Source: Prosthecomicrobium sp. N25 | GTDB taxonomy: Bacteria; Pseudomonadota; Alphaproteobacteria; Rhizobiales; Ancalomicrobiaceae | Direction: 5' to 3' | Length of the DNA stretch: 64,000 nucleotides | NCBI RefSeq assembly: GCF_037203705.1 | Contig: NZ_JBBCAT010000003.1 | Location: 124,001-188,000 of the forward strand | Shown: one piece after another, positions 12,147 through 28,424 of the stretch | How the letters are laid out: every line of letters begins with the position of its first letter | Numbering within the stretch: the stretch's first letter is position 1 | Position numbers and translations under genes: made by a program | Notes under the pieces: generated by a model | The model's database searches: none | What the model saw: only the letters and a program-made list of their open reading frames with translations | Told to the model about the DNA's origin: nothing

Positions 12147-14366
12147 ATGTCGGACACGAGCGGCGGCGCGAGCGAACGGATCATCCTCAAGGTCCTGAGC
12201 GGCCTGCAGACCGGCGCGGAGGTGTCGCTGGTCGCGGGCGAGTACGGCGTCGGCTCGGGCCCGGACGACGACCTTCAATTCGTCGACGTGAGCTTGAAGC
12301 CGGGCCATGCCCGCCTGCGGGTGGCGGCCGGCAAGATCCAGGTGTCCGGCCGGGCCGGGTCCCTGAAGACCTCGAACGGCCTCGTGGTGGCGGCCGGCAG
12401 CGACGACTGGCAGGAGATCGAGCCTCTCGAGGTGGTCACCGCCGGCACGACCCGCTTCGCCCTCGGACCGCCGACCGCCAACTGGGCGACCATCACGGAT
12501 GCGGAGGACATCGGGCCGACCGACCCCCTCGCCCGCCGCGCCGGCGCCGCCGCCGCCAAGGCGAGGTCACCCGCCGAGACCGAGGCGGGCTGGTCGCGCC
12601 TCGCCGGGCCGCTCGTGGCGGTGCTGGTGGCGGCAGGCCTCGGCGCGGCCTGGTACACCTTCGGCATGGACGGCGCGTCGCGGGCGCGGGTCGCCGAAAC
12701 CCGCAGCGACCAGGAGATCGTCCGTGCGGCGCTCGACCAGTTTCCCTTCGGCCGCCCCGTGGAGGTTCGCCGGGAGGTCGACGGGACGCTCTACGCCAAC
12801 GGCTATGTCGAGACCGCCGCCGAGCGCCGCGCCCTGACGGCCGCGCTCGAGAAGACCGGCGTGCCCGTCCACGCCCGGCTCTGGGTGCTGACATCGCTGC
12901 GCCAGGAGGTCGACAACCTCGTCGCCTCCCGCCGCCTCAAGCTGCAGGCCAACCTCACCAAGTCCGGAGACCTTTCGCTGGAGGGCGTCGTGCTGAGCCA
13001 GGACGCGGCCGACCGGGTCGTCTCCCTGGTGCGCGACACGGTGTTCGGACTCAAGACGGTGGAGTCGCGCATCCGTACTGCGCCCGTCCTGCTGAAGGAC
13101 GTGGAACGGCTGGCCCGGCAGTCCCAGATCGACGGATCGGTCCTGTTCCGGCTCGATGCCGACCTGATCGAGGCGACCGGCTTCGTGACCCTCGACAAGG
13201 TCGATGCCTGGGTCGGCTTCCTGCAGGCCTACGGCCAGCGCTTCGCTGCCGATATCGGGCTCCGGTCCTTCGTCCAGCTCCAGGGCAACCCGGGACGGAA
13301 CCTCGTGGCCGACCCCCGCATGGCCCAGCGCGGCATCACGATCGGGCCCCAGGCGAGCGGCGACACCAGCCTCGACCTCGACCGGCTCCGGCAGGGCCTG
13401 TTCGACCTATCCGACGTCTTCGTCGGCCTGCGCAAGACGTCCCAGCCCGCCCCCGGGGCCGCGGAAGCTGCGGCCGACGCGGCCCGACCCGTGGCCCGGG
13501 TCGTCCGCGCCGAGGGCGCGACCCCGCGCATCCGCTTCACGGACCTGGTCGAGGCCCCTGCCGCCGCCACCCCGGCCGCGGCGCCGGAGCCCGTCCCCGC
13601 GCCCCAGCCCGCCGGGACGACGCCGCAGCCCGCGCCGAAGCCGGCCGAGGCCGCGCCGGCAACCCCGGACCGCGCCGTCGACCTCTCCCGCACCGCGCAA
13701 TCTTTGATCGACGCCTGGCGGCGCGGACGCCTCAACGGCCCGGGGCAGGATCGAACCCTGTCGGAGGCGCTCTCCACCCTGGACCGGTCCCTCGCCCGCG
13801 AGGGAGGCGCCGACGCCCTCACCCGCCTCTACGGCCCGCTGCTGGCCGAGCGCCTGCAGCCCCGCACCAGCGACGGCGCGCCGTGTTGGCCGGGGGCCCA
13901 GCTCAGCGCCCACGCCCTGCCCGGCGTCCTTCTCTGGCTCGATCTCCTCAGCGTCAGCGACGCCATGACGATCTCCTCCTTCGATCGGCCCACCCAGGTC
14001 CTGCTGCTCGAAGCCGCCCTGAACCCGGGCGCCGCGGCGGCCTGCGCACGCGCCATCGATGCGGCATCGCGCTCGGCCGCCCTCGCGACGGGATCCCTGT
14101 ATCTCCGCGAGACCCGTGCCAACCCGGACTTCGTGCGCTTCGTCACCCGCGATCTCACCGCCTACAAGCTCGACGTGACCGGCGTCAGCGTCGGGCGGGA
14201 CCGCTTCCTGCAGGTGCGCGACGGTCGCAAGCTGCCGGAGGGCTCGGCGCCCGACCCCGACAACCGCCTCGCCGTCATCGGCGAACTCGGCTCGGCGCTC
14301 CAGGGCAAGGAGCGTTTCGCGATCATCATCTACGGCCAGGACGTGAACTGGCTGGTCGCCAACTGA
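12147..14366 (+). CDS. sctD: T3SS inner-membrane ring protein SctD (YscD-like) with large C-terminal extension
   Basis: 739 residues. An N-terminal cytoplasmic FHA-like domain (about 12-108, GEYGVGSGPDDDLQFVD) is followed by an acidic/Ala linker, one membrane span (about 152-172, PLVAVLVAAGLGAAWYTFG), and three periplasmic ring-building repeats to about residue 400. This is standard SctD (about 420 residues). Beyond it lie a Pro/Ala-rich linker (about 440-515) and an extra 220-residue domain with two cysteines (PCWPGAQ and AAACARA). SctD forms the outer part of the inner-membrane ring and contacts the secretin. The extension would lie in the periplasm. A 141-base gap upstream holds TAAAGT at 12070 but no CRP-like site. 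Confidence 0.85.
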   Translation: MSDTSGGASERIILKVLSGLQTGAEVSLVAGEYGVGSGPDDDLQFVDVSLKPGHARLRVAAGKIQVSGRAGSLKTSNGLVVAAGSDDWQEIEPLEVVTAGTTRFALGPPTANWATITDAEDIGPTDPLARRAGAAAAKARSPAETEAGWSRLAGPLVAVLVAAGLGAAWYTFGMDGASRARVAETRSDQEIVRAALDQFPFGRPVEVRREVDGTLYANGYVETAAERRALTAALEKTGVPVHARLWVLTSLRQEVDNLVASRRLKLQANLTKSGDLSLEGVVLSQDAADRVVSLVRDTVFGLKTVESRIRTAPVLLKDVERLARQSQIDGSVLFRLDADLIEATGFVTLDKVDAWVGFLQAYGQRFAADIGLRSFVQLQGNPGRNLVADPRMAQRGITIGPQASGDTSLDLDRLRQGLFDLSDVFVGLRKTSQPAPGAAEAAADAARPVARVVRAEGATPRIRFTDLVEAPAAATPAAAPEPVPAPQPAGTTPQPAPKPAEAAPATPDRAVDLSRTAQSLIDAWRRGRLNGPGQDRTLSEALSTLDRSLAREGGADALTRLYGPLLAERLQPRTSDGAPCWPGAQLSAHALPGVLLWLDLLSVSDAMTISSFDRPTQVLLLEAALNPGAAAACARAIDAASRSAALATGSLYLRETRANPDFVRFVTRDLTAYKLDVTGVSVGRDRFLQVRDGRKLPEGSAPDPDNRLAVIGELGSALQGKERFAIIIYGQDVNWLVAN

Positions 14367-14786: not shown

Positions 14787-15050
14787 CTACCGGACCGGAT
14801 CTGAAATTACAGGAAAGGCTAACACGAGCTTGGACGCGGCGGCAAGGCCGCGCAGCAGGGCTTCCGCCTTGGCGAAATCGTCCGGCGTCAGGCCCGCGTC
14901 CATGGCGGCGCGGGTCTCCTCCTGCAGCACCCGGAAGCGCTCGATCAGGCCGGCCCGCACGAAGGCGCCCTCGGGTCCGCGCAGGACCTCCTCCAGGTCG
15001 GTCATCCCGAAGTCGACCGCGGTCCCGCCCGCGCCGGTGTCGTCCGTCAT
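14787..15050 (-). CDS. Needle co-chaperone, YscE/PscE-like
   Basis: 87-residue helical protein. From its second methionine it reads MTDLEEVLRGPEGAFVRAGL, then IERFRVLQEETRAAM, and LLRGLAAASKLV. PscE and YscE (about 67 residues) start MTALETRL or MTQLEEQL and share the two-helix layout. YscE, with YscG, keeps needle subunits unassembled in the cytosol. ATG 15050 overlaps the stop of the regulator gene (ATGA) and has GAGGACGAGGACGC upstream. The inner ATG at 15005 would give 72 residues, nearer family length, but has a weaker site. Confidence 0.7.
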   Translation of the reverse strand: MTDDTGAGGTAVDFGMTDLEEVLRGPEGAFVRAGLIERFRVLQEETRAAMDAGLTPDDFAKAEALLRGLAAASKLVLAFPVISDPVR

Positions 15051-15739
15051 GCGTCCTCGTCCTCGATGGCCAGCGCCTCCAGGCGCGGGCGGTCCAACAG
15101 TATGATGGAGCGGTCCCGGAGCGCGATCCACCCGGCCCGCTCCCACATCTTCAGGGCCCGGTTGACGTTGCCCCGGGCGCCGCGCGCCATCAGGCCGAGG
15201 TCGGTCTGGGTGACCACCGACCCGACGCAGGGCACCCGCCGCCCCCCGTGCTCGGCCGTGGTGCCGAGCCCGTCGGCGAGCCGCAACAGCGACTGCGCGA
15301 GCCGCGCCGGCAGGGACCGGAGGCTCAGGATCCGGGTCAGGTCGATATAAGACCGGTAGCGCCGGGCCACGACCCGCGACAGCGCGCGCCCGATCTCGCC
15401 GTGGCGCGCCGCCAGGTGGTGGAAGCCGCCGATCGGGATGGCGGCCACCACCGTGTCGCCGATCGCCGTCGCCATGTCGCAGTGGACGCCGCCGTCGAAG
15501 ATGCCCAGTTCCCCGAAGCTCTCCCCGGCCGGCAGGATGGCGTAGAGCACGGCGGACCCGTCCTCCATCAGATAGGAGAGGCGGACATGGCCGGAGCGGA
15601 CCACGTAGAGGTGCTCCGCCTCCTCCTCCTGGATGTAGATGAAGGCGTTGTGCCCGTAGCGGCGCCGGATGGCGGCGGCCTGCAGCGCCGCGCGCGCGTC
15701 CGGCCCCAACTGGTCGAACTCCGAACCGGCCAGAAACAT
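15047..15739 (-). CDS. Crp/Fnr-family transcription regulator of the T3SS locus
   Basis: 230 residues. An N-terminal cyclic-nucleotide-binding fold (about 20-125, with LYVVRSGHVRLSYLMEDGSA and the PAGESFGELGIFDG loop) is followed by a dimer helix and a C-terminal winged helix (about 150-225). The recognition helix reads ARGNVNRALKMW where CRP has SRETVGRILKML: both arginines are kept and the glutamate is glycine. No FNR-type cysteine cluster. ATG 15739 (upstream GGGGGGAAG) is preferred over the GTG at 15793. It is co-transcribed with the needle genes and divergent from sctV. Four CRP-like sites in this locus make it the likely T3SS activator, an inference. The ligand is unknown: the usual Arg-Ser pair for cAMP is not evident in GESFGELGIFDG. 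Confidence 0.85.
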   Translation of the reverse strand: MFLAGSEFDQLGPDARAALQAAAIRRRYGHNAFIYIQEEEAEHLYVVRSGHVRLSYLMEDGSAVLYAILPAGESFGELGIFDGGVHCDMATAIGDTVVAAIPIGGFHHLAARHGEIGRALSRVVARRYRSYIDLTRILSLRSLPARLAQSLLRLADGLGTTAEHGGRRVPCVGSVVTQTDLGLMARGARGNVNRALKMWERAGWIALRDRSIILLDRPRLEALAIEDEDA

Positions 15740-15948
15740 CCGCCCGCTTCCCCCCGGACCGGCGGCCGCGCGACCGGCCGGACGGCGCGGCACGGCCCCG
15801 TTCCGCGCGTTTCTACTTCCGACATTATTGATGGTTCTCCAAAGCGCAAGCCAGCTTCCGCAGGGCCCAGACGGGATGGTACTTTCGTCCGTGGCGGCTT
15901 AAGCTCCAGCGAAGCCCTTCCGGTCGCAATCACGATTGCGGAGCATCC
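15740..15948. promoter_or_regulatory. Divergent regulatory region between crp-like gene and sctV
   Basis: 209 bases without a gene. It is locally less GC-rich near 15810-15840 (CGACATTATTGATGG). No full CRP-like site with the spacing seen elsewhere was found. A perfect inverted repeat sits directly before sctV (separate entry). Promoters for both directions must lie here, but I cannot place them with confidence. Confidence 0.4.
15925..15940. promoter_or_regulatory. Perfect palindrome overlapping the sctV ribosome site
   Basis: CGCAATCACGATTGCG: 6-bp arms around CACG. Its last base is the first of GGAG (15940-15943), the ribosome site of sctV (ATG 15949). It could be an operator or a small mRNA hairpin limiting sctV translation. 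Confidence 0.4.
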
Positions 15949-18081
15949 ATGACGCGCTTTCTGCAGGCCCTGTCCAGCCGGAACGATCTCTTCCTGGCTG
16001 TTCTGCTCGTCTGTATCGTGTTCATGATGATCCTGCCGCTTCCGACGGCACTCATCGACACTCTGATCGGCGTCAACCTCGCGCTGTCCGCCATTCTTCT
16101 GATGGCCGCCATGTACCTGACGGACGTGGTCCAACTGTCGTCGTTCCCCTCGATCTTGCTTCTCACGACCCTGTTTCGACTTGCCTTGGCGATTTCGACG
16201 ACGCGCCTGATCCTGATCCAGGCGGATGCGGGCCACATCGTCGAGACCTTCGGCCAATTCGTGATCGGCGGCAACCTCGTGGTCGGCCTCGTGGTCTTCC
16301 TGATTTTGACCATCGTCAACTTCATGGTCATCACCAAGGGCTCCGAGCGCGTCGCCGAGGTGTCGGCCCGCTTCTCGCTGGATTCGATGCCCGGCAAGCA
16401 GATGTCCATCGATTCCGACATGCGCGCCGGCATGATCGAGCTCGACGAGGCCAAGCGCCGGCGCTCCAAGCTGGAGAAGGAGAGCCAGCTTTACGGCGCC
16501 ATGGACGGCGCCATGAAGTTCGTGAAGGGCGACGCCATCGCGGGCCTCATCATCATCGCCGTGAACCTGATCGGCGGCATCACCATCGGCACCCTCCAGC
16601 GCGGCATGAGCGTCGGCGAGGCGCTCGAACGCTACGCGCTGCTCACCATCGGCGACGGCCTCGTCCAGCAGATCCCCGCGCTCTTCATCTCCATCACGGC
16701 CGGCTTCATCGTCACCCGCGTCTCCTCGGAGGAGAACAAGGACCTCGGCTCCGACATCGCCGCCCAGCTCGTCAACGAGCCGAAGGCGCTGCTGATCACC
16801 TCCGCCATCCTGGCCATCTTCGCGGTGGTGCCGGGCTTCCCGGCGATCGTCTTCGTCTGCCTGTCGGCGGCCTGCGCCGGGGGCGGCCTCCTGATCCTGA
16901 AGCGCCGCAAGACCCTGCGCTCGGAGAGCCGGTCGAAGGAGATGCCGGCGCTCGCCCCGGCCCTGTCCCCCAAGGGCGCGGTCCCGTCCTTCCCCGCCTC
17001 CCGCGACGACGCCGAGGACCTTGAGCCCGTGGAGGCCGTCACCTTCGCGCTGACGGTCCCGCTCATCGTCGACATCGCCTCGAGCGTCCGCAACTCGATC
17101 CGCCCCGACAAGCTGGACCGCGAGGTCGCCCGCGTCCGCCGCGCCCTCTACTTCGACCTCGGCGTCCCCTTCCCGGGTGTCCACCTGCGCCTCAACGACA
17201 ACCTGCGCGAAGGGGAATACCGCATCCTCGTCAACGAGATCCCGGTCGCCTCGGGGCTCTACCGGCCGGGGTACTTCATCGTCCGGGAGACCGAGGCGAA
17301 CCTGAAGATGTTCGACATCCCCTTCGAGCGCGGCAACGACTTCCTGCCCAACACGCCGAGCTACTGGGTCGCCATGAAGCACCACGGCCTCGTCGAGAAG
17401 GCCGGCATCCAGATCATGACCCTCTCCAACATGCTGACCTTCCACCTGGCCCACGTGCTGAAGAGCCACGCCAGCGAATTCGTCGGCATCCAGGAGACCA
17501 TGTATCTGATGAACCAGATGCAGAAGAACTTCGGCGACCTCGTCAAGGAGGTCACCAGGACCCTGCCGGTGATCACCATCAACGACGTCCTGCAGCGCCT
17601 CGTCGGCGAGGAGATCTCGATCCGCGACATGCGGACCGTCCTGGAGGCCCTGGTCGAGTGGGGCCAGCGCGAGAAGGACCCGATCGTCCTCGCCGAGCAC
17701 GTGCGCGGCGCGCTCAGCCGCTACATCACCCACAAGTTCTCCGGCGGGCAGAACGTGATCCCCGCCTATCTGATCGCCAAGGAGATCGAGGACGCCGTGC
17801 GGGGTGCCGTGCGCCAGACGAGCGGCGCCTCCTACCTGGCCCTCGCCCCCGACGTGCACCGCCAGCTGATCGCCTCCATGCGCAACGTCATCGGCTCGGT
17901 GAACAACCGGACGCTGCCCCCTGTGATCCTCGCCCCGATGGACATCCGGCGCTTCCTGCGCAAGATCGTCGAGCGGGATTTCCCCGACCTGGCCGTGCTG
18001 TCCTACCAGGAGCTCGCCCCCAACGCGAACGTCCAGCCGCTCGAGCGCATCAAGCTCGTCAGCCAGATCGCGTCCGGCTGA
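15949..18081 (+). CDS. sctV: T3SS export gate protein SctV (YscV/LcrD, FHIPEP family)
   Basis: 710 residues, near family length. The N-terminal half has about eight membrane spans (starting at about residue 20), with the FHIPEP signature region at about 115-200 (GSERVAEVSARFSLDSMPGK and QMSIDSDMRAGMIELDEAKR). A cytoplasmic linker is followed by a C-terminal domain from about 365 that forms the nonameric ring. SctV binds SctX/SctY and chaperone-substrate complexes and couples the proton gradient to export. It is the first gene of the main operon and precedes the ExbB-like gene by 20 bases. Long antisense frames here are coding shadows. Confidence 0.97.
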   Translation: MTRFLQALSSRNDLFLAVLLVCIVFMMILPLPTALIDTLIGVNLALSAILLMAAMYLTDVVQLSSFPSILLLTTLFRLALAISTTRLILIQADAGHIVETFGQFVIGGNLVVGLVVFLILTIVNFMVITKGSERVAEVSARFSLDSMPGKQMSIDSDMRAGMIELDEAKRRRSKLEKESQLYGAMDGAMKFVKGDAIAGLIIIAVNLIGGITIGTLQRGMSVGEALERYALLTIGDGLVQQIPALFISITAGFIVTRVSSEENKDLGSDIAAQLVNEPKALLITSAILAIFAVVPGFPAIVFVCLSAACAGGGLLILKRRKTLRSESRSKEMPALAPALSPKGAVPSFPASRDDAEDLEPVEAVTFALTVPLIVDIASSVRNSIRPDKLDREVARVRRALYFDLGVPFPGVHLRLNDNLREGEYRILVNEIPVASGLYRPGYFIVRETEANLKMFDIPFERGNDFLPNTPSYWVAMKHHGLVEKAGIQIMTLSNMLTFHLAHVLKSHASEFVGIQETMYLMNQMQKNFGDLVKEVTRTLPVITINDVLQRLVGEEISIRDMRTVLEALVEWGQREKDPIVLAEHVRGALSRYITHKFSGGQNVIPAYLIAKEIEDAVRGAVRQTSGASYLALAPDVHRQLIASMRNVIGSVNNRTLPPVILAPMDIRRFLRKIVERDFPDLAVLSYQELAPNANVQPLERIKLVSQIASG

Positions 18082-18101: not shown

Positions 18102-19232
18102 ATGTCAGTCGACGGGGCGCGCGTGGCGATCTACACCGGCGGCCTCATGGCCGCGCTCGCCCTGCATGTCCTCGTCCACGCGGAAGCGCGCGGGGCCCCG
18201 GCGCTCGTCGCGGCCGGCATCGTCCTGGCCGCCCTCGCCCCCGGCCTCGTCGGGGCCGGCGGTCGCCTCGCCGCGCTGCGCCGCCCGGCCGCCGCGGCCG
18301 CCGCGGTCCTCGTGCTCCTGGTCCCGCTCGGTCTCGCGGCCCCCGAGGCCGGCCTGGCGGCCACGATCGCCTCTCGCCCCCTGCTCACCGAGCTCCCGGC
18401 CGTCTTCTTCGCCGCCCGCCTCGTCGCCTGCGAGGACGAACGGCGCTTCGACGCCTTCTGGCGGAAGCCGACGGCCGCCGTGCCGCCCGCGAGCCTGCCG
18501 TCCACTCTCGCCGCGATCCTGACCGGCGCCTTCCTGACGCTCGTCTTCTACAAGCTCGCCGCCGACCTCAAGGGAGCGGGCCCGGATCCGGCGACCCGGT
18601 TCGCCATCGCGGCGGCACTCGGCGAGACCGCCGTCCACCACGCGATCGTCTTCCTGTTCTTCGTCATCCTCGCCCACGCCTTCGAGATGCACCGCCTCGC
18701 CCGCGCCGACGCGCGCGCACTTGGCCGGCTGGCACGGCTCATCGACCTCGATCCGCACGGCTTCGCGGCCGACCCGGCCCGCGCCGCCGCGAGCCTCGCC
18801 GGGGAGGCACCGGGCCGGGTGCCGGGCCTCGTGCTGGCGTCCCTCGACCAGGCCGGCCGGCCCCAGGACCGGGGCGGCCTGCTCTCCGCCCTCGCCTACG
18901 AGGGCTTCCGTCGCGCCGGCGACCGCTTCGTCCGCACCCTCGTTCCGCTCCTGCCCCTGCTCGGCTTCGTCGGCACCGTGGTCGGCATCGCCACCGCCAT
19001 GGCCGACCTGCCGCGCGGCCTCGGCGCCGGCACCGAGCGGGGCTTCGACATCGGCCAGAGCCTGGCCGGCCTCGCCATCAAGTTCGAGACCACCCTCCTC
19101 GGCCTCGTGGCCAGCCTCGTCGCCATGCTGGTCCTCGGCGCCCTGGAGCGTGGCGAGGCCGAACTCGCCGCACGCACCGAACGCCTGGTCGATGCCGGGC
19201 TAGCCGCCGCCGGCCCGGAGCCGGCCCGGTGA
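18102..19232 (+). CDS. MotA/TolQ/ExbB-like proton-channel protein inside the T3SS operon
   Basis: 376 residues. Three to four N-terminal spans (about 8-75), a span near 135-150, one near 175-195, a cytoplasmic loop (about 200-260), then the conserved ExbB/TolQ pair of helices. The first contains LVPLLPLLGFVGTVVGIATA and the second QSLAGLAIKFETTLLGLVAS, followed by a charged helix GALERGEAELAARTERL. The GTVVGI and TTLLG threonines correspond to channel residues in ExbB. ExbB/TolQ/MotA proteins form pentamers that convert proton flow into rotation of a central dimer. It lies 20 bases after sctV with GGAGGA upstream, and its stop overlaps the next start (GTGA). I know of no described injectisome with such a gene. 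A contribution to export energetics or rotation is inference. Confidence 0.8.
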   Translation: MSVDGARVAIYTGGLMAALALHVLVHAEARGAPALVAAGIVLAALAPGLVGAGGRLAALRRPAAAAAAVLVLLVPLGLAAPEAGLAATIASRPLLTELPAVFFAARLVACEDERRFDAFWRKPTAAVPPASLPSTLAAILTGAFLTLVFYKLAADLKGAGPDPATRFAIAAALGETAVHHAIVFLFFVILAHAFEMHRLARADARALGRLARLIDLDPHGFAADPARAAASLAGEAPGRVPGLVLASLDQAGRPQDRGGLLSALAYEGFRRAGDRFVRTLVPLLPLLGFVGTVVGIATAMADLPRGLGAGTERGFDIGQSLAGLAIKFETTLLGLVASLVAMLVLGALERGEAELAARTERLVDAGLAAAGPEPAR

Positions 19233-19741
19233 ACCCGGACCTGTTCGCCGGCCGCTTCGACGCCGCGCCCCGGTCTGCGCCGGACGAGCCGCGGACCGCC
19301 CTCGCGTCGGATCTCTTCTTCAGCCTCACCGCCGTCATCGCCCCCCTCCTGGCGCTCGTGCTGCCGCTCGTCGGGCTCGGCGCCGGGCGCGCGGCGCTGG
19401 ACGTCGAGGCCGCCGCCGCGCTCCTGCGGACGGCCAGGATCACGGATGGCGGCGCCGAGGCCGCGGTCGTCGTCGCCGGCCCGCGCCGGCTCGCCTACGG
19501 GCACGACCGGACCGCCCCGGTGCCCCTCGACGCGGCACCGGACGACCCCGGGCTCCGCGCCTACCTGGCGGAGGCGGCGCGGGACGGCAGGCCCGTCCTG
19601 CTGGCCATCGAGCCCGGCGGCGAGGAAGGCGGCTTCGTCGCCGAGCCGCTCGTCGCCCGCGCGGGGGTCGGCCGCCTGCTGCGCCTCCGCCTCGGACCGG
19701 GCTGCCGTCCCGACGGCCTCGCCAGGGGAGAGTGCCGGTGA
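19229..19741 (+). CDS. ExbD/TolR-like single-span protein (first of two)
   Basis: 170 residues. A short cytoplasmic N terminus of about 26 residues, an aspartate just before one membrane span (ASDLFFSLTAVIAPLLALVL at about 26-45), then a periplasmic domain of about 115 residues with two cysteines near the end. ExbD, TolR and MotB share this topology, with the aspartate at the start of the span carrying protons. GTG start overlaps the ExbB-like stop (GTGA), and the stop overlaps the next gene in the same way, so all three are coupled. The periplasmic part shows no peptidoglycan-binding OmpA motif. Confidence 0.6.
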   Translation: MNPDLFAGRFDAAPRSAPDEPRTALASDLFFSLTAVIAPLLALVLPLVGLGAGRAALDVEAAAALLRTARITDGGAEAAVVVAGPRRLAYGHDRTAPVPLDAAPDDPGLRAYLAEAARDGRPVLLAIEPGGEEGGFVAEPLVARAGVGRLLRLRLGPGCRPDGLARGECR

Positions 19742-20523
19742 CCCCCGCACGGCGCGCGGCCGCGCTCCGACCCCAGTCCGCCGGAGCGCCGTTGGACCTG
19801 ACCGCCACGATCCTCACCGACCTGTCGGCGAACGTCTTCGCGGTCTTCGTCCTCGTCCTCATGCTCGCCCTCGCCGCCCCGAAGGGCCGCGACGCGACGC
19901 CGCCCGCGAGCCTGGAGGCCGCGACGCTGGGGGCCCGGGCGGCGAAGCCGCTCGACCCGGACGCCATGGTGGCCATGCTGCACCGCCGGGGCGAACCGGG
20001 CGGCGTCTCGGTCGACGTCTTCGCCGATCGCGTCGTCCTCCTGTCCTCCGACGGGACCTCGGTGCTGACCGGGGCCGCGCCGGCCGGCGCCCTCGCCGGC
20101 CTGCCCCCGGACCGGCGCGTCGACGTCTTCGTCTTCTCCGCCGGCCGCTACGGCGCGGTGGCCGCCGCTTTGGACGGGCGCGCCGGGGTGGCCGAGATGT
20201 CCGTGCCCGGCGCGCTGCGCCGGCCGCCTGGCACCGGCGAGGGCTGGTCGCGCGGCTTCGAGCGCCTGCAGGCGCGCCGGCTCGACCGGCAGGCCTTCAG
20301 GTCCGAGCTGGCGGCCCTGGTCGCGGGCGCGGGCCGGGACCGCGCCGATGCGCCGGCTGGCGGGCGGGGAGCGGCCGGCGGCACCGGTCTGCCCGGCGGC
20401 ACGCCCCCTGAGGACCTCTCCGCGCGGCTCGCCGCGATGCTGACCCGCGGCCTCGACGCCCTCGCGCTCCTGGCCATCGCGGTGCTCGCCGGCTTCGCCG
20501 AACGTCGCCGCCGGCGCGCCTGA
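19738..20523 (+). CDS. ExbD/TolR-like single-span protein (second of two)
   Basis: 261 residues. The N-terminal span reads LTATILTDLSANVFAVFVLV (about 20-39) with an aspartate where ExbD and TolR have theirs, then MLALAAPKG. A periplasmic region of about 190 residues contains an ExbD-like stretch (VDVFADRVVLLSSDGTSVLT, and PPDRRVDVFVFSAGRYGAV) that fits the ExbD beta-alpha fold. An unusual second hydrophobic helix lies at the C terminus (GLDALALLAIAVLAGFAERR). GTG at 19738 is preferred over GTG 19732 because GGGGAG ends at 19730. Two different ExbD-like proteins could form a heterodimer inside the ExbB-like pentamer. Confidence 0.7.
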   Translation: MTPARRAAALRPQSAGAPLDLTATILTDLSANVFAVFVLVLMLALAAPKGRDATPPASLEAATLGARAAKPLDPDAMVAMLHRRGEPGGVSVDVFADRVVLLSSDGTSVLTGAAPAGALAGLPPDRRVDVFVFSAGRYGAVAAALDGRAGVAEMSVPGALRRPPGTGEGWSRGFERLQARRLDRQAFRSELAALVAGAGRDRADAPAGGRGAAGGTGLPGGTPPEDLSARLAAMLTRGLDALALLAIAVLAGFAERRRRRA

Positions 20524-20610: not shown

Positions 20611-20898
20611 ATGAGCGACAGCATCCAGAGGGTCTCGTCCGTGCCCTTGCCGGAGCACGTGACTCAGCGCGTGGACCGCAACCCACTCCCGGTCTCGTCG
20701 AGCCAGGCCCGCGAGGCGGCGGACGAGAAGCGCCTGGAGCCCGCCCGCCAGGAAACCCGCGACGGCTTCGAGACGTACCTCGAGAACCAGGCGATCCTGC
20801 ATCTCGAGCAGGTCCAGGCCTCGACCCGGTTCGATCCGGTCGAGGAACTCCGCAAGGCCAGCGTCTATCAGGACCCGACGACCCGCCCGCCGGTGTGA
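20611..20898 (+). CDS. Small hydrophilic protein, T3SS operon
   Basis: 95 residues, not recognised. A disordered N-terminal half (PLPVSSSQAREAADEK) is followed by a helix (RDGFETYLENQAILHLEQVQ) and a short tail. No signal peptide. ATG 20611 follows GGGAGGG. It lies between the ExbB/ExbD-like cassette and sctI, with 87 bases upstream containing TATGCT (20567-20572). Small size and Ser-rich start are compatible with an early T3SS substrate or a chaperone partner. Confidence 0.55.
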   Translation: MSDSIQRVSSVPLPEHVTQRVDRNPLPVSSSQAREAADEKRLEPARQETRDGFETYLENQAILHLEQVQASTRFDPVEELRKASVYQDPTTRPPV

Positions 20899-21054: not shown

Positions 21055-21537
21055 ATGGCCACCATCACGACCGTACCGGGAGCACCCCGCACGGAGTCGC
21101 TTCGCGGCGTCGGGCTCGACCGGCCGACCGGCCCGGGCGGCGACGGCTTCGACGCGGCGATGCGCAAGGCCCTCGGGGCCGCACAACCGACGCACGTGGC
21201 GCAGGCTGCGCCGCCGGTGGTGACCGACGCCCAGCCGGTCGCCGACCCCGGTGCGGCGGAGCGCGCCCGGCGCGGCTTGGGCCTGGAGGGCCCGTCCCCG
21301 GTGGCGCCCGAGCCCAACACGGGCGACGCCATCATCGAGGGCCTGCAGAAGCTCCGGGGCGTCTTCGACGACCAGAATGCGCGGCTGAACGCGGTCGCCA
21401 ACGCCGCCAACACGGATTTTTCCTCGCTGATGGCCATGCAGATGGAAATGGTCCGCTTCTCGCTCCTCGTCGAGGTGACGAGCAAGCTGACGGGCAAGTC
21501 CACCCAGGCCTTCGACACCCTGATGAAGGGTCAGTGA
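21055..21537 (+). CDS. sctI: T3SS inner rod protein SctI (YscI-like)
   Basis: 160 residues with a long Pro/Ala-rich N-terminal region (YscI is about 115) and the conserved C-terminal helix: SSLMAMQMEMVRFSLLVEVT, then SKLTGKSTQAFDTLMKGQ, aligning with YscI LMLMQWSLIRITIQEELIAK and AGRMSQNVETLSKGG. SctI forms the short rod that anchors the needle in the export gate. Its stop overlaps the sctJ start (GTGA). Order sctI-sctJ-sctK-sctL matches Yersinia. Confidence 0.85.
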   Translation: MATITTVPGAPRTESLRGVGLDRPTGPGGDGFDAAMRKALGAAQPTHVAQAAPPVVTDAQPVADPGAAERARRGLGLEGPSPVAPEPNTGDAIIEGLQKLRGVFDDQNARLNAVANAANTDFSSLMAMQMEMVRFSLLVEVTSKLTGKSTQAFDTLMKGQ

Positions 21538-22367
21538 CTTCCGGGAGATCCGTGTTGCGTAGCCATCGCATGCCCTTGCGCGCCGCCGCGCTGATCTTGG
21601 GCGCCGTGCTTCTGGCCGGATGCCAGCAGGATCTCTACTCCAACCTCGTGGAGACGGAAGCCAACCAGATGCTGGCGATCCTGATGTCGAACGGCATCCC
21701 GAGCGAGAAGGTCGCGCGCGGCAAGGAGGGCTTTGCCATCACGGTGGAAGGCCGCGACATGCTGCGCGCCATCGCGGTCCTGAAGGACGCGGGCTATCCC
21801 CGCTCCAGCCGCGACTCGATCGGCAAGGTGTTCCAGAAGTCCGGCATCATGTCCTCCCCCTTCGAGGAGCGCGTCCGCTACATCTACGCCCTCGGCGAGG
21901 ACGTCGCCCAAACCTTGAGCAACATCGACGGCGTGGTGACCGCGCGGGTCCACATCGTGCTCCCGGACGCGCCCCAACTCGGCCAGCCCGTGAAGCCGTC
22001 CTCCGCGGCGGTCTTCATCAAGCATCAGCCCGGCGTCGACCTCGACTTCTTCGTGCCCCAGATCCGCCGGCTGGTCTCGAGCTCGATCGAGGGCCTCGAG
22101 TATTCGGCCGTGACGGTCGTGCTGGCCGATGCGCAGCCCACGAAGGTGACCGCACAGGCCGAGACGAGCGGTGTCGTGGAGGTCCTGCCCGGGCTTGCGA
22201 TCCGCGAGTCCGACACCACGCGCTTCTGGCAGATTGCCGGCGCCGCGGCCGCCGTGATCGGGCTCCTCCTGATCAGCACCGTCACGGCCGTCCTGATGCT
22301 CGCCCGCCGCAGCCGCGGCCGGGGCGCCGCCGCCGACAAGGCGGTTGCCCTCGTCGAACCGACCTGA
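21534..22367 (+). CDS. sctJ: T3SS inner-membrane ring lipoprotein SctJ (YscJ/PrgK)
   Basis: 277 residues. Signal peptide with lipobox LLAGC (cysteine near residue 30), the two YscJ ring-building domains with SNLVETEANQMLAILMSNGI and the ARVHIVLPDAP motif, then a C-terminal membrane span (about 225-248) and a basic tail. SctJ oligomerises with SctD in the inner membrane. GTG 21534 overlaps the sctI stop; GTG at 21552 with GGGAG upstream is an equally good start and would shorten the leader by six residues. Confidence 0.95.
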   Translation: MTSGRSVLRSHRMPLRAAALILGAVLLAGCQQDLYSNLVETEANQMLAILMSNGIPSEKVARGKEGFAITVEGRDMLRAIAVLKDAGYPRSSRDSIGKVFQKSGIMSSPFEERVRYIYALGEDVAQTLSNIDGVVTARVHIVLPDAPQLGQPVKPSSAAVFIKHQPGVDLDFFVPQIRRLVSSSIEGLEYSAVTVVLADAQPTKVTAQAETSGVVEVLPGLAIRESDTTRFWQIAGAAAAVIGLLLISTVTAVLMLARRSRGRGAAADKAVALVEPT

Positions 22368-22393
22368 ACCGCGCGCCGGGAGGGGGGAGCCGC

Positions 22394-23128
22394 ATGACCG
22401 CCGGTATCGCTGATCTCCGCCGGCTCGACCTCCTCGCCCGCCTCGCCCATGCGGTCCTGCGTCCGGCCGACCGCGCCCACCCTGACCGGCTCGCGCCCGC
22501 CTTCGGGACCGGCACGATGACGGCCGGGAGCCTTGCGGCACTGCTCGCCGTGCCGGCGTTCCGCGGTCCCGTCAACCGCGCGCTCGCCGCAGCGCTGGAC
22601 CTCGACCAGCTCCCGATCGGCCCCGGCCTCCTGGCCAGGATCGACGCGGCACCCGCCACGCGCGCAGCCATCCTGCTGGTGACAGCCGACGGCCAGTCCC
22701 TCGCCGGCGCGGCCCGGGCCCTGGCCGCCGCCGTCCTGCACCGCCGGATCGCCGGCATGGTCCTGAAGGCCGAGCGGTCGAGGGCCGCCGCGATCCTGGG
22801 CGAGGCCGGGTTCGCCGTCGCGGTGCACGAGGCCCCGGTCCTGCACGCCGGGCTCGGCGCGCTCGCGGGCTCCGCCGACGTTCTCGCCGGCGACCCCGCC
22901 GACCCGGAGACCTCGGCCCGCATGGACCGCTACGGCCTCGCCTGCGTCGGCCGCTATGTCGAAGCGGTCGAGCCCGAGCTGCTTCCGCTGCTTTTGCTGC
23001 GCGTCCGGCCGGCCTCGGGATACGACCCGGAGCGGCTCGGCATCGCCGCCATGGCGAACACCCATGTCGAGCAGGTCGTCAGGCTCATGCGACGGAGGCG
23101 GCCGGCATGGTCGGATACTATCGGCTGA
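22394..23128 (+). CDS. sctK: T3SS sorting-platform protein SctK (YscK-like)
   Basis: 244 residues, alanine- and leucine-rich, soluble. SctK proteins diverge strongly. The call rests on position between sctJ and sctL, length near YscK (about 210), and a pattern of helices with a C-terminal [16 protein letters not shown]. SctK links the SctQ-SctL-SctN sorting platform to SctD at the inner ring. Strong GGGGGGAG site before ATG 22394. The 3' end overlaps sctL by 22 bases. Confidence 0.7.
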
Positions 23129-23748
23129 ACGCCCTCGGCTTCGCCCTGCCGGCCGGAACCCACGTCCTCGGCCCCGCCGAGACGGGTGCCCTGAACGGCG
23201 CCGCCGACCTCGTCGCCGCCGCGGAGGCGGAAGCCGCGCGGATCGTCGAGGCCGCCCGCGCCGCCTACGAAGAGGAGAAGGCGCGCGGCCGGGCCGACGG
23301 CCTCGCCGAGGCCCAGCTCGCGGCGGTAGACCGCCTGGTCGAGGAGAGCCGGGTGCTGGACGAGGGCCTCGCGGCGGTGGAGCGCGGTCTCGCCGACCTC
23401 GTCGTCTACTGCGTGCGGCGCCTCGTCGACGGCTTCTCGGCCAACGAGCAGGCCGAGGCGGTGGTGCGCGCCGCGCTGAAGCAGATGCGCCGAGCCGCGC
23501 GGGCCCAGGTCCGGGTCGCGCCGGCCCAGTACGCCCCAGTCAAGGCCGCGGTCGAGCGGATGATGGCGAACTTCCCCGAGATGGAGCTGATCGACGTCGT
23601 CGAGGATGCCGCGCTGGATCCGCCGCGGGTCATCGTCGAGTCCGCCATCGGGCGCGTCGACGGCGATCTCGGCGCCCGCCTTCACGACATGGTGGCGATC
23701 CTGACCCGCGCCCGCGCCGTCGACGCGGAGGAGGGCGCCGGGCCATGA
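23107..23748 (+). CDS. sctL: T3SS ATPase stator SctL (YscL, FliH/HrpE family)
   Basis: 213 residues. An N-terminal region is followed by an alanine/glutamate-rich helix ([20 protein letters not shown]) typical of FliH/YscL, then a C-terminal domain with [20 protein letters not shown] and [18 protein letters not shown] resembling the V-ATPase subunit E fold. SctL dimers form spokes joining the ATPase SctN to SctQ and restrain ATPase activity. Start overlaps sctK; its stop overlaps the sctN ATG (ATGA). Confidence 0.9.
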
Positions 23749-25130
23749 CCGAGACCGCCCGGTTCGGCCGGATCGAGGCCGTGGCCCACGAGCGCCGGCG
23801 CCGCATCGCCGAACGCCTCGGCCTTTTCGCCGACGACGCCCGCGCGCGCCTGGTCGACTTCCAGCCCTACGCGCTGACCGGCCGCGTCCGGAAGGTCGTC
23901 GGCACGATCATCCACGCGACGGTCCCGGAGGTGCAGGTCGGGGAGATCGTCGAGCTCCACACCCGGTCGACCGGCGCCCGCCTCATGGCCGAGTGCGTCG
24001 GCTTTCTCGACGACGAGGCGCTGCTCTCGCCCATCGGGGAGACCCAGGGGGTCTCGCCGAAGACGGAGGTGCGCCTCACCGGCCGGGTCCAGGCCGTGCC
24101 GGTCGGTGCCGGCCTGCAGGGCCGGGTCCTCGACGGCCTCTGCAACTTCATCGACGGCAAGACAGACCCCTTCGTGCCGGAGGCCTGGTACCCGGTCTAC
24201 AAGGACCCGCCCGACCCGATGACCCGGCGGGTCATCGACAGCCCCCTGTCGCTCGGCGTGCGCGCGATCGACGGCATCCTGACCTGCGGCGAAGGCCAGC
24301 GGATGGGCATCTTCGCGGCCGCCGGCGGCGGCAAGTCCACGCTCCTGTCCATGCTGGTCAAGGGCGCCGCCGTCGACGTGACGGTTCTCGCCCTGATCGG
24401 CGAGCGCGGCCGCGAGGTGCGCGAGTTCATCGAGCACGACCTCGGCCCGGAGGGGATGCGCAAGTCGGTGATCGTGGTGGCGACCTCCGACAAGAGCTCG
24501 ATGGAGCGCGCCAAGGCGGCCTTCGTGGCGACCGCCATCGCGGAGTTCTTCCGCGACCAGGGCAAGCGCGTGCTCTTCCTGATGGATTCGGTCACGCGCT
24601 TCGCCCGCGCCCAGCGCGAGATCGGCCTCGCCTCCGGCGAGCCGCCGACGCGGCGCGGCTTTCCGCCCTCCGTCTTCGCCAACCTGCCCAAGCTGATGGA
24701 GCGGGTCGGCATGAACGACAAGGGATCGATCACCGCGCTCTACACGGTGCTGGTCGAGGGCGACGACATGAACGAGCCGGTCGCCGACGAGACCCGCTCC
24801 ATCCTGGACGGCCACCTGATCCTGTCCCGCAAGCTCGCCGCGGCCGGTCACTACCCGGCGATCGACGTGCTGACCTCGAAGAGCCGCGTGATGGACAACG
24901 TCACCAGCAAGGAGCACGTGCGCATGGCGCGGCGCGTGACGTCCTGGCTCGCCACCTATGCGGACGTCGAGCTCCTGGTGAAGGTCGGCGAATACAAGAA
25001 GGGCAGCGACGCCGAGGCCGACATGGCGATCGCCAAGTACAAGGACATCAACGCCTTCCTGCAGCAGGGCACCGAGGAGTTCGACAGCTTCGACACCACC
25101 CTCGCCAAGCTGAAGGCGCTGACCCGATGA
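23745..25130 (+). CDS. sctN: T3SS ATPase SctN (YscN)
   Basis: 461 residues, F1-beta-like hexameric ATPase that strips chaperones and unfolds substrates. Walker A is AAGGGKST (about residues 194-201), Walker [13 protein letters not shown] (about 278-289), and the YscN/FliI signature [15 protein letters not shown] is seen as [20 protein letters not shown]. The C-terminal chaperone-binding helices ([20 protein letters not shown]) are intact. ATGA overlaps on both sides couple it to sctL and sctO. Confidence 0.97.
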
Positions 25131-25606
25131 TCGGACAGCTGAAGGTCCTGCTGCGCGTCAAGACCCTGAAGCTCGACCAGGCCTTCCGGGTCATGCAGGC
25201 CAAGCGCGCGCAGCTCGAGGACGCCAAGGCCGCCACCGCCGCCGCCCGCGCGATCGTCGAGGAGAGCCGCCGCACCCTGCCCGCCCGGATCGACGCCGCC
25301 TACGCCGCGATCATCGGGTCGGTCGTGGACCTCGGCCGCATCGACGACGTGAAGGGCGCGGTGCTCGCGCTCGAACAGGCCCACGCGGACCTCGTCGACG
25401 ACCTCGCGCGCGCCGAGCACGTCGAGAAGCGCATCGCCGGCGAACTGGAGGAGGCGACCCGCCGCTACCGCCAGGCGACCAAGGACCGCGACAAGTACGG
25501 CATCCTGACCGACGAACTGGCGCAGGAGATCGCGTCCGGCGAGGCCGCCCGCGAGGAGGTCGAGATCGAGGACCTGTTCGGCCGCAAGAGGAAGAAGACC
25601 GCATGA
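25127..25606 (+). CDS. sctO: T3SS ATPase stalk protein SctO (YscO/FliJ-like)
   Basis: 159 residues forming a two-stranded antiparallel coiled coil: basic first helix ([20 protein letters not shown]) and second helix ([20 protein letters not shown]), with a basic end RKRKK. YscO/FliJ proteins insert in the SctN ring like F1-gamma and contact SctV. Overlaps sctN by four bases and sctP by four. Confidence 0.85.
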
Positions 25607-26349
25607 GCGAGATCGGCAAGTCCGGCGGCCACGACCGCGACCCCGGCCTGTCCATGCGGCAGGGCGACCGGGACGCCGTTCCGCGCGGCCAGGGACGGCG
25701 ACCCGACACGGGCGACGCCCGCGGCCGGCCGCCGGGCACGGCGGCGCTCCAGGCCGAGCGGGCGCATTTCGAGGCCCGGCTCGAGCGCGCCCGCGCCGGC
25801 ACCGAATCCCGGACGGGCGAGCGCGACGGCGATCGGGACCGCGACCCCGGCCGCGACGCCCGCCTGCTGGCGGAAGCCGGCGCCGGCGGCCTCCTGCTGC
25901 CGCTCGCCCCCGGCATGTCCCCCCTGGCGCCGCCCGCCGGCGACGGGCCCGGGGCCGGCGCTGCGCCCTCCGGCGGCGAACCCGCGCGGGCCGCCATGGC
26001 GATCGCGGAGCGCGTGGCCGTCCTCGCCGAGGCGCCGCCCGTCGGGGGGACGGCCGGCCGGGCGAGCGTCGTCCGGCTGGAGCTCGCGGCCGACACGGGC
26101 CTCGCAAGCGTCACGGTCGACCTCGCCGCCGGCCGCATCGACGTGATGCTGTCCCATGCCGGCGGGCTCGGGGCCGAGACCTTGTCGGCGCTGGCGTCCG
26201 ACCTCGCCCTCCGCCTCCGCGCCCGCTTCCCGGACCGCACCGTCCGGATCCTGGACCGCATCGAGGCGGAGGCCGCCCCGGAGACCGCGGACGGCGGCTT
26301 CGGCCTCATGGCCGCGGTGTTCCGGGCGGCGGGCGGAGGCAGCCCATGA
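25603..26349 (+). CDS. sctP: T3SS needle-length regulator SctP (YscP-like), short form
   Basis: 248 residues. A disordered Arg/Asp/Gly-rich N-terminal region (1-110), a short link, then a folded part (about 135-248) with VVRLELAADTGLASVTVDLA and LRARFPDRTVRILDRIEAE, which resembles the substrate-specificity-switch/FliK-like C-terminal domain. YscP measures needle length and switches export through SctU. Ruler length correlates with needle length, and this ruler is only half the size of Yersinia YscP, so a short needle is possible. Assignment relies mainly on position between sctO and sctQ. Confidence 0.7.
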   Translation: MSEIGKSGGHDRDPGLSMRQGDRDAVPRGQGRRPDTGDARGRPPGTAALQAERAHFEARLERARAGTESRTGERDGDRDRDPGRDARLLAEAGAGGLLLPLAPGMSPLAPPAGDGPGAGAAPSGGEPARAAMAIAERVAVLAEAPPVGGTAGRASVVRLELAADTGLASVTVDLAAGRIDVMLSHAGGLGAETLSALASDLALRLRARFPDRTVRILDRIEAEAAPETADGGFGLMAAVFRAAGGGSP

Positions 26350-27404
26350 ACGCACCGTGGATCGCCGGCCCAGGGGGCCGGCTCGCCCGCCCTGAGGCCG
26401 TCTGGAACGCCCTCGTCACCTATGCGCGCCAGCCGCTGCCGCTCGCCGCCAAGGGCGCGACCCTGACCTTCGAGCCCGCGCCGCGGCCGGCCGACGACAC
26501 CGTCGCGCTGGACGTCGCCTTCGCGTCCGGGCCGCGGCTTCTGCTGGTGATCGCCGCGTTCCCGTTCCAGGCGCTCTTCGGCCTGGACATCGAGGCGGAC
26601 GAGATCGCCGCCCTGCCGGCCGCCCTGTCCGGTGGCCTGCAGGAGGGCATCCTGGCCCTCCTCGCCGCTGCCGCGCCCGAGAACGCCCTCGGCGCCCCCC
26701 GCCTGCTCCGCGCCGGGTCGCTCGCTCACCTGGCCCGCGCCCCCGACCGCGGGCCCGAACCGCGGGAGTGGCTGTCGCTCACGGTCGCCGGCCTGGTCCC
26801 CGCCCCCGTCCGGCTCGTCGCCGGCATCGATCCCGACAGGCTCGTGGCCTTGGTCCGCGACGGCGCGCTCGCGCCCCGGCAGGTCTGGCCGGCCCTCGCC
26901 GCGACGATCCCGGTCGAGGTCTTCGTCACCCTCGGCGCGATGCGGACCACGGTCGGCGAGCTCCTCGACCTCAAGGCCGGCAGCCTCGTGGTCCTCGCCG
27001 CGACCCCGCCCGGCACCGCTCGCCTGCGGGTCGCCGACCGGACCGCCACGCTCGCCGCCGGCGCCAACGGCTGGACCTTCGCCGCCGTCACCGACCAGGA
27101 CCGCTACCGCCCCGCCCCAGGAGACACCGCCCCCATGACGGACGACCCCCTCGCCCGGCCCGAGGAGGGCCGGGGCCTCGCCGGCCTGCCCCTCGTGATC
27201 GACTTCGACATCGGGCGCCTGACCGTTCCGCTCGCCGAGGTCGAGCGCTGGACCGCCGGCACGGTCGTGCCACTGGACCTCGCTGCCCCCGGGCCCGGGA
27301 CGGAGGTCACGGTCCGCGCCAACGGGCAGGCGATCGCGACCGGCGATCTCGTCCGGATCGACGACCGCATGGCCGTGCGGCTGACCCGCCTCATGCTCGG
27401 CTGA
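26346..27404 (+). CDS. sctQ: T3SS sorting-platform protein SctQ (YscQ, SpoA domains)
   Basis: 352 residues. The N-terminal two thirds include a first SpoA-like region (about 195-245, VFVTLGAMRTTVGELLDLKA and GSLVVLAA). The C-terminal SpoA domain (about 278-352) holds LPLVIDFDIGRLTVPLAEVE and DLVRIDDRMAVRLTRLM. SctQ builds the cytoplasmic pods that recruit chaperone-substrate complexes. It overlaps sctP by four bases. An internal in-frame start gives a separate C-terminal product (separate entry). A 69-base gap with a G/C hairpin separates it from sctR. Confidence 0.92.
   Translation: MNAPWIAGPGGRLARPEAVWNALVTYARQPLPLAAKGATLTFEPAPRPADDTVALDVAFASGPRLLLVIAAFPFQALFGLDIEADEIAALPAALSGGLQEGILALLAAAAPENALGAPRLLRAGSLAHLARAPDRGPEPREWLSLTVAGLVPAPVRLVAGIDPDRLVALVRDGALAPRQVWPALAATIPVEVFVTLGAMRTTVGELLDLKAGSLVVLAATPPGTARLRVADRTATLAAGANGWTFAAVTDQDRYRPAPGDTAPMTDDPLARPEEGRGLAGLPLVIDFDIGRLTVPLAEVERWTAGTVVPLDLAAPGPGTEVTVRANGQAIATGDLVRIDDRMAVRLTRLMLG
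27135..27404 (+). CDS. Internal translation product SctQ-C
   Basis: ATG 27135 is in frame with sctQ (codon 264) and preceded by AGGAGA (27119-27124), 10 bases upstream. Translation from here yields 89 residues that are exactly the C-terminal SpoA domain. In Yersinia, Salmonella and Shigella the same internal start makes a short SctQ form that assembles with full-length SctQ. Here it is predicted from position and ribosome site only. Confidence 0.55.
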   Translation: MTDDPLARPEEGRGLAGLPLVIDFDIGRLTVPLAEVERWTAGTVVPLDLAAPGPGTEVTVRANGQAIATGDLVRIDDRMAVRLTRLMLG

Positions 27405-27473
27405 GCCGAGAGGCCGGCTTCCGGCCGGGCAGGACCACCCGCCGCGCGAGTCCGCGGCCGCTTCGAGGGGCGC

Positions 27474-28115
27474 ATGACCGATCCGTTGAACCTCATCATG
27501 GTGCTGGCGCTGGCCGCGCTGGTGCCGTTCCTGGCGGTGGTCGCCACCTCCTTCATCAAGCTCTCGGTCGTCTTCCTGCTCGTCCGCAATGCGCTCGGCG
27601 TGCAGCAGATTCCGCCCAACATGGCGCTGAACGCGCTCGCCATCATCCTGTCCGGCTACATCATGACCCCGGTCGCGATGGAGACCTACGACATCCTGTC
27701 GAAGGCCGACTACACGGTGGATTCCGTCGACGGCCTGCGCCGGGCCTACGACGACGGCAAGGGCCCGCTGACCCGCTTCCTGAAGGAGAAGGCGGCGGAG
27801 CGCGAGAAGCTGTTCTTCCTGGAGTCCGCCAAGAGCCTCTGGCCGAAGAGCCTGTCCGACCGGATCGACGCCGACAGCATCGCGGTCGTGCTGCCGGCCT
27901 TCACGGTCAGCCAATTGCGCGAGGCCTTCGAGATCGGCTTCCTGCTCTACCTGCCCTTCATCGCCATCGACCTCATCGTCTCCAACATCCTGCTCGCCAT
28001 GGGCATGATGATGGTGAGCCCGCTGACCATCTCCCTGCCCTTCAAGCTCTTCCTGTTCGTCATGGTCGACGGCTGGTCGCGGCTGATCCTCGGTCTCGTC
28101 AAGACATACCTCTAG
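27474..28115 (+). CDS. sctR: T3SS export-gate protein SctR (YscR/FliP)
   Basis: 213 residues with four membrane spans and the FliP-family segments SFIKLSVVFLLVRNALGVQQ, VLPAFTVSQLREAFEIGFLL and MVSPLTISLPFKLFLFVMVD. Five copies with four SctS and one SctT form the helical export gate. It lacks a cleavable signal, as do other YscR proteins. The start follows GAGGGG. Confidence 0.97.
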   Translation: MTDPLNLIMVLALAALVPFLAVVATSFIKLSVVFLLVRNALGVQQIPPNMALNALAIILSGYIMTPVAMETYDILSKADYTVDSVDGLRRAYDDGKGPLTRFLKEKAAEREKLFFLESAKSLWPKSLSDRIDADSIAVVLPAFTVSQLREAFEIGFLLYLPFIAIDLIVSNILLAMGMMMVSPLTISLPFKLFLFVMVDGWSRLILGLVKTYL

Positions 28116-28126
28116 GAGACGCCCGC

Positions 28127-28393
28127 ATGTCGCCCAACGAAGCCGTCCACCAGGTCACCGAGGCGATGATCCTGGTCATGCTCCTGTCCATGCCGCCGAT
28201 CCTGGTCGCCTCCGTGGTCGGCATCCTGGTCAGCCTCCTGCAGGCCCTGACCCAGGTGCAGGAGCAGACGCTCTCCTTCGCCATCAAGCTCATCGCGGTG
28301 GCGGCCACCATCGCCGCCATGGCGAGCCTCCTCGGCAACGAGGTGCTCGTCTACACGCTGAAGCTCTTCAACGAATTCCCGAACATGACCTGA
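28127..28393 (+). CDS. sctS: T3SS export-gate protein SctS (YscS/FliQ)
   Basis: 88 residues with two membrane helices (about 15-38 and 51-73) linked by the conserved LLQALTQVQEQTLSFAIK motif of FliQ/YscS. It follows sctR by 11 bases with TAGGAG overlapping the sctR stop as the ribosome site. Confidence 0.95.
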   Translation: MSPNEAVHQVTEAMILVMLLSMPPILVASVVGILVSLLQALTQVQEQTLSFAIKLIAVAATIAAMASLLGNEVLVYTLKLFNEFPNMT

Positions 28394-28424
28394 GGGACCG
28401 TCCGGCGACCGGACGGTGAGCGCC

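Follow-up and report, generated by a model that had tools for sequence, protein, structure and literature searches.

Why does the operon of a type III secretion system (T3SS) carry genes that resemble those of a proton-driven stator? Injectisomes are considered to be powered by the SctN ATPase and by protons flowing at the export gate, and in Prosthecomicrobium sp. N25 the region between sctV and sctI holds a gene for a MotA/TolQ/ExbB-like channel subunit (B) followed by genes for two unlike membrane partners (D1 and D2), referred to together as the cassette. We analysed these genes in a 64,000-nucleotide stretch of the 5.95-Mb genome (contig NZ_JBBCAT010000003.1, positions 124,001 to 188,000), hereafter the window. 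The original prediction, made from the letters of this DNA, had placed an ExbB-like gene and two unlike ExbD-like genes at this position; the coordinates, the 20 bases between the sctV stop and B, and the GTGA overlaps joining B to D1 and D1 to D2 were all confirmed. D2 starts with GTG at 19738, and an alternative in-frame GTG at 19732 is possible. On balance we lean towards reading the cassette as an accessory stator-type unit that acts on the needle complex or the surrounding wall and is not the core export engine.

The channel subunit and its two unlike partners

By its sequence, B is a member of the MotA/TolQ/ExbB channel superfamily. The window protein exceeded the curated cut-off of Pfam MotA_ExbB (PF01618, E 1.2e-6; Table 1), as the original prediction led one to expect, and all 16 aligned B members matched this family at E 0.01 or better. 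The two channel motifs singled out beforehand, LLGFVGTVVGIATA and FETTLLGL, are both present, and LP.LGF.GTV and F.TT.LGL are invariant across the aligned members. By our reading, the GTV and TT.LGL motifs carry the counterparts of ExbB Thr148 and Thr181 and of TolQ Thr145 and Thr178. The pore threonines of ExbB (148 and 181) and TolQ (145 and 178) adjoin the essential Asp23 of ExbD/TolR, according to excerpts of PMC12215075. Hydropathy analysis of B revealed 7-8 candidate spans, consisting of a three-span core and about 4-5 extra N-terminal hydrophobic segments, and the loop that joins core spans one and two has 58-82 residues in 13 of the 16 members and 18-30 in three. The excerpted text of PMC12505986 attributes varied extensions at the termini and condensed cytoplasmic domains to the 'generic ion transporter' relatives of MotA outside the flagellum. 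Among the NCBIfam equivalogs the sole match of B was exbB2 (17.6 bits, cut-off 135.35), and a PDB sequence search with the B alignment (A4) returned only cytochrome b (E 0.044). We rejected an ordinary TolQR or ExbBD copy as the identity of the cassette, since this equivalog match is far under its cut-off and the PF02472 match of the genome lies elsewhere, in a separate gene adjoining a MotA_ExbB gene away from the cassette.

D1 and D2 each carry an aspartate at the head of the first span (residue 28 in both window proteins), just as had been predicted, and it is kept in 16 of 16 aligned D1 members and 15 of 15 aligned D2 members. These counts refer to alignments A5 (D1) and A6 (D2); G709 and L058 (contig ends in B) are in none of the three alignments, and L039, with its short D2, is not in A6. 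In D1, a proline stands at position -3 to the aspartate in 13 of 16 members, the window D1 being among the three without it. The P-x-x-D of 27 out of 27 ExbD/TolR comparison genes tests the spacing of the aspartate only, as these genes were picked from 30 loci by a proline-containing motif. Both partners had been described as single-span proteins, which holds for D1 and fails for D2, where a second, C-terminal hydrophobic span (residues 236-254 by hydropathy) lies within a helix (227-260) of the predicted model.

The assignment of the two partners to ExbD did not stand at the level of Pfam profiles, where D1 and D2 are without any match. PF02472 (ExbD) matched none of the 16 D1 members and none of the 15 D2 members at E up to 1, and D1 is not among the PF02472 matches of its own genome. 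Profile comparison of D1 and D2 with ExbD led nowhere, and Pfam gave no match to a MotB plug or an OmpA-like wall-binding domain in either protein. PDB sequence searches returned only 8qyd_F for the D1 profile, which we take to be ZorB and which aligned on the aspartate span (E 1.2, not significant), and only unrelated proteins for the D2 alignment (E 0.18 or worse). When the predicted D1 model was aligned with 997 chains, TolR and three ExbD entries took the top four rows, and three of the top four Foldseek rows were TolR/ExbD entries as well, so that a TolR/ExbD-like fold of the periplasmic domain of D1 is supported by prediction.

Two features of the D genes were observed in passing. D2 is shortened in two loci, L022:6806-7132 (108 aa) and L039:3212-3601 (129 aa), the former keeping both spans and almost no periplasmic part. 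Adjacent ExbD gene pairs occur, by coordinates, in at least 19 of 61 genomes in a PF02472 search (e.g. G034:C17:54123-54886); side-by-side D genes are therefore not unique to the cassette locus.

Inheritance with sctV and natural absence

A survey of genomes revealed that the cassette is not confined to the window. B lies directly behind sctV in at least 18 genomes of several alphaproteobacterial families (G012/L037 and G267/L058 each counted once), and all three genes were seen in 17 of these, the contig of L045 ending within D2; the contig of G267 ends inside B. In the family of the host, B was found in 4 of 15 genomes. Scanning GTDB with B yielded at least 46 loci, at which the presence of B is not independent evidence because B itself was used to find them. 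In 13 of them sctV (73-86% identity) is directly upstream, and these belong to Bradyrhizobium, Prosthecomicrobium, four Aureimonas, Rhizobium oryzicola, Breoghania, Chelatococcus, Aquibium and three metagenome-assembled genomes (two labelled Rhodobacteraceae, one Rhizobiales). The other 33 are generic relatives with no sctV in the DNA examined around them.

The cassette genes are under purifying selection, with dN/dS of 0.06-0.34 in two species pairs; these ratios, together with the conservation in at least 18 genomes, exclude chance open reading frames. The cassette travels with this T3SS lineage. Cassette distances were correlated with sctV distances across 13 genomes (Mantel r 0.84, 0.76 and 0.85; 0 of 5000 permutations each), a set from which L022 (short D2), L037 (almost identical to L021) and L039 (absent from A6) were left out. 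The cassette proteins diverge much faster than SctV, the median pairwise identities being 0.28-0.31 and 0.76, respectively. A plasmid-borne element was considered and rejected, as tblastn gave no match in 72,556 plasmid records, from which records of or near the host genome were possibly left out.

How far this T3SS depends on the cassette was gauged in 397 genomes of the order that were sampled without regard to the cassette; 13 of them have this sctV type. The cassette is present in seven of the 13 (G000, G013, G012, G008, G225, G709 and G267) and missing in five (G281, G289, G744, G708 and G732); the contig of G238 stops within sctV. Profile search of the five cassette-free whole genomes found no orthologue. 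Weak partial matches turned up in G708, G732 (E 3.5e-6) and G289 (2.1e-4), the true copy in G709 scoring 5.4e-17, and we read them as generic relatives since no D1-like, D2-like or T3SS gene lies beside them (~3 kb). In eight class-level genomes, where sctV stands at 47-57%, the 1.5 kb behind sctV contained no cassette, and the search of the other T3SSs (L091-L101 and L159-L166) likewise covered ~1.5 kb behind sctV. With filters off, the D1 and D2 profiles gave weak matches in the class-level locus L165 (6.5e-4 and 0.0057); these lie on the other strand from sctV and were taken as chance.

The five genomes that have this sctV type and no cassette indicate an accessory status, and gene content points the same way. 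G281 keeps sctD, sctF, sctI, sctJ, sctL, sctN, sctO and sctW of the same type, and G289 keeps sctI, sctJ, sctL and sctN. In the stretches read, G744 retains sctI, sctJ, sctL, sctN, sctO, sctQ, sctR, sctS and sctT, and G732 retains sctQ to sctU. The cassette thus appears, from gene content, to be a T3SS-linked accessory, since such gene sets exist without it. That cassette-free relatives keep their T3SS genes speaks against a role of the cassette as the main engine of export; a need for it to energise export, a function suggested in the original prediction, is not supported. Directly behind sctV in G289, where the cassette is missing, lie two genes for transposases, which Pfam identifies as integrase-core and DDE_5 (L113:8242-9950). 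On sctV trees the cassette occurs in each main branch of this clade, which suggests that it is ancestral; it was probably at the base of the clade and lost at least three times, the likeliest and not the only history, with deep forks of the tree open. Since related T3SSs with and without the cassette exist naturally, its role is directly testable.

A proposed accessory stator-type unit and its alternatives

The accessory unit that we favour might work as follows. B subunits, by analogy a pentamer, would encircle the spans of D1 and D2 (two spans by analogy, perhaps one from each protein), and protons or another cation would pass the threonine ring of B via the span aspartates, moving the D pair. 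The periplasmic D domains would then most likely relay either force or a gating signal, be it to the surrounding wall or to those parts of the injectisome that lie in the periplasm or outer membrane; the secretin and peptidoglycan are candidates. The effect may be to tune the timing or the firmness of needle action, in the manner of SiiAB for its type I system. Such a unit would be made from the sctV operon as an accessory of this T3SS clade, and the persistence of related T3SSs without the cassette suggests that it does not run export. Ion conduction, subunit numbers, rotation, the partner and the effect of the unit are all inferred.

The nearest functional precedent appears to be SiiAB, encoded like the cassette inside a secretion-system locus. 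This Mot/Exb/Tol-family proton channel of the Salmonella SPI-4 type I system is dispensable for secretion of SiiE and required for invasion, according to excerpts of PMC12607715. Likened by description, the two differ in that SiiAB serves a type I system and has a single partner, SiiA, with a wall-binding domain, whereas the cassette has two partners and no wall-binding domain by Pfam. GldL-GldM is a stator-family motor serving type IX secretion, which makes it similar by description to the cassette, although the secretion system is a different one. Type 9 secretion is also named among the contexts of stator-family units in the excerpted text of PMC11890865. The idea of a stator-family unit in a secretion system therefore has precedents.

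With TolQ-TolR and ExbB-ExbD the cassette shares a channel subunit combined with a span headed by a single aspartate, and the predicted periplasmic fold of D1. It differs from them in the two unlike partners, the second span of D2, the multi-span N-terminal extension of B and the position of D1 and D2 outside Pfam ExbD. No TonB-like or TolA-like gene was noticed in the cassette, and no search was aimed at one. MotA-MotB resembles the cassette in that B falls in the same Pfam superfamily and in the tie to a type III export machine; the cassette departs from it by lacking a MotB plug or OmpA-like domain by Pfam, by its shorter cytoplasmic loop and by belonging to an injectisome and not a flagellum. 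Weak matches of B to ZorA (E 0.008-0.025) recall ZorA-ZorB, but D1 and D2 have no PADLOC match and B has no long cytoplasmic tail. A Zorya defence system was rejected, as these weak ZorA matches were its only trace.

The original prediction stated that no known injectisome carries such genes, and among the matches listed in the open-access literature none indeed described genes of the ExbB/ExbD type within a T3SS operon. Excerpts of a T3SS phylogeny paper contain no ExbB and mention MotA/MotAB only as flagellar genes (PMC3459982), and the excerpted text of a paper on MotAB evolution lacks the terms 'type III' and 'injectisome' (PMC12505986). The parts are of a known kind. What is new, as far as the literature matches listed show, is that they sit in an injectisome, that there are two unlike partners and that D2 has a second span. 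If a stator-family unit is indeed inherited with sctV across several families, at least one lineage would have added a separate proton-driven actuator to its injectisome.

A dedicated rotary proton motor with two unlike central subunits (5:1:1) is conceivable as a working part of one injectisome lineage, and we propose it tentatively; it would turn or pull some component of the needle complex in the periplasm or outer membrane. The asymmetric pair could then produce unequal half-cycles or perform separate jobs, D1 as a TolR-like arm and D2 as an anchor re-entering the membrane. Two unlike D subunits for one channel would be a natural case that bears on how the ExbBD, TolQR and MotAB motors work.

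Direct support of export, with the unit as the energy source put forward in the original prediction, strikes us as unlikely. The unit would then supply or adjust the proton gradient at SctV, or move the export gate or the C-ring. The position directly behind sctV and the co-divergence with it speak for such a role, as does the dependence of type III export itself on the proton gradient, which is stated for flagella and injectisomes in excerpts of PMC4778876 and PMC7911332. However, the cassette is missing from five of the 13 genomes that have this sctV type, and the cytoplasmic loop of B, the region of the torque interface in flagellar MotA, has just 18-30 residues in three of 16 members.

We are similarly doubtful of a general envelope role, a Tol-like maintenance of the wall or outer membrane at injectisome sites by a unit merely co-expressed with the T3SS. 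The predicted fold of D1 is closest to TolR, and loss of tolB lowers T3SS secretion in enterohaemorrhagic Escherichia coli according to excerpts of PMC7511404, an effect showing that envelope motors of this kind can matter to an injectisome. Against this, the genome has its separate PF02472 gene beside a MotA_ExbB gene, and all 13 loci with close B among the at least 46 have this sctV type upstream, with none seen near the 33 generic relatives.

Less probable still is that B, D1 and D2 conduct nothing and serve to assemble or scaffold the SctV ring or the basal body, with the channel motifs as structural relics. The multi-span extension of B and the fast divergence of the cassette would fit it, but the presumed ion-path residues, namely the span aspartates and the threonine motifs, are among the best kept. 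Turning or pulling of the extended periplasmic SctD, as the original prediction proposed, is very improbable: SctD is unusually long and its YscD-type match covers only residues 12-347, the remainder being an extension, but cassette-free G281 has an equally long SctD (aligned over 8-735, 39% identity), which argues against long SctD as the sole target.

The surrounding type III locus

The locus in the window is a non-flagellar T3SS with all main parts. SctV, SctN, SctR and SctU exceed their NCBIfam cut-offs, and the window also encodes a secretin, an SseC-like translocator and an HrpJ-type SctW. The needle protein passed PF09392 (40.4 bits, cut-off 29.4) but scored 30.7 with TIGR02105, under its cut-off of 41.7. 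The names sctL, sctO, sctP, sctQ, sctS and sctT are presumptive and follow from position; all of these genes except sctP are kept in relatives.

Table 1. Positions of the cassette and of other T3SS-related features in the window.
Feature	Coordinates	Strand	Evidence
sctD (739 aa)	12147..14366	+	PF16697 above cut-off; TIGR02500 57.8 bits, under cut-off 86
Crp-type regulator gene, divergent neighbour of sctV, near needle gene	15047..15793	-	
sctV, T3SS export-gate subunit, first gene of presumed operon	15949..18081	+	PF00771 763.8 bits; NCBIfam TIGR01399 (SctV) 920.5 bits, cut-off 692
B, ExbB/TolQ/MotA-like channel subunit (376 aa)	18102..19232	+	PF01618 28.7 bits, cut-off 22.9
D1, TolR/ExbD-like, single-span (170 aa), Asp28 heading span	19229..19741	+	
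D2, second partner (261 aa): N-terminal span with Asp28 at head, periplasmic alpha/beta domain, second span, basic C-terminal tail	19738..20523	+	
Small hydrophilic conserved open reading frame (95 aa), downstream of D2	20611..20898	+	tblastn in relatives; without Pfam match
sctI, sctJ, gene between sctJ and sctL, sctL, sctN, sctO, sctP-like, sctQ, sctR, sctS, sctT, sctU	21055..30499	+	SctI, SctJ: Pfam; SctN, SctR, SctU: NCBIfam
sctC, secretin (801 aa)	32268..34673	-	PF00263 152.2 bits; Secretin_N 69.4

The small open reading frame separates D2 from sctI; its counterpart lies directly behind sctV in cassette-free G281, indicating that it is kept independently of the cassette. A promoter and terminator scan gave nothing exceeding shuffles. 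In SctC, encoded on the strand opposite to sctV, ~148 residues precede a weak N0 match. The Crp-type protein encoded next to sctV is likely a regulator of the T3SS, and relatives of it are present in the T3SS loci L023, L044 and L116.
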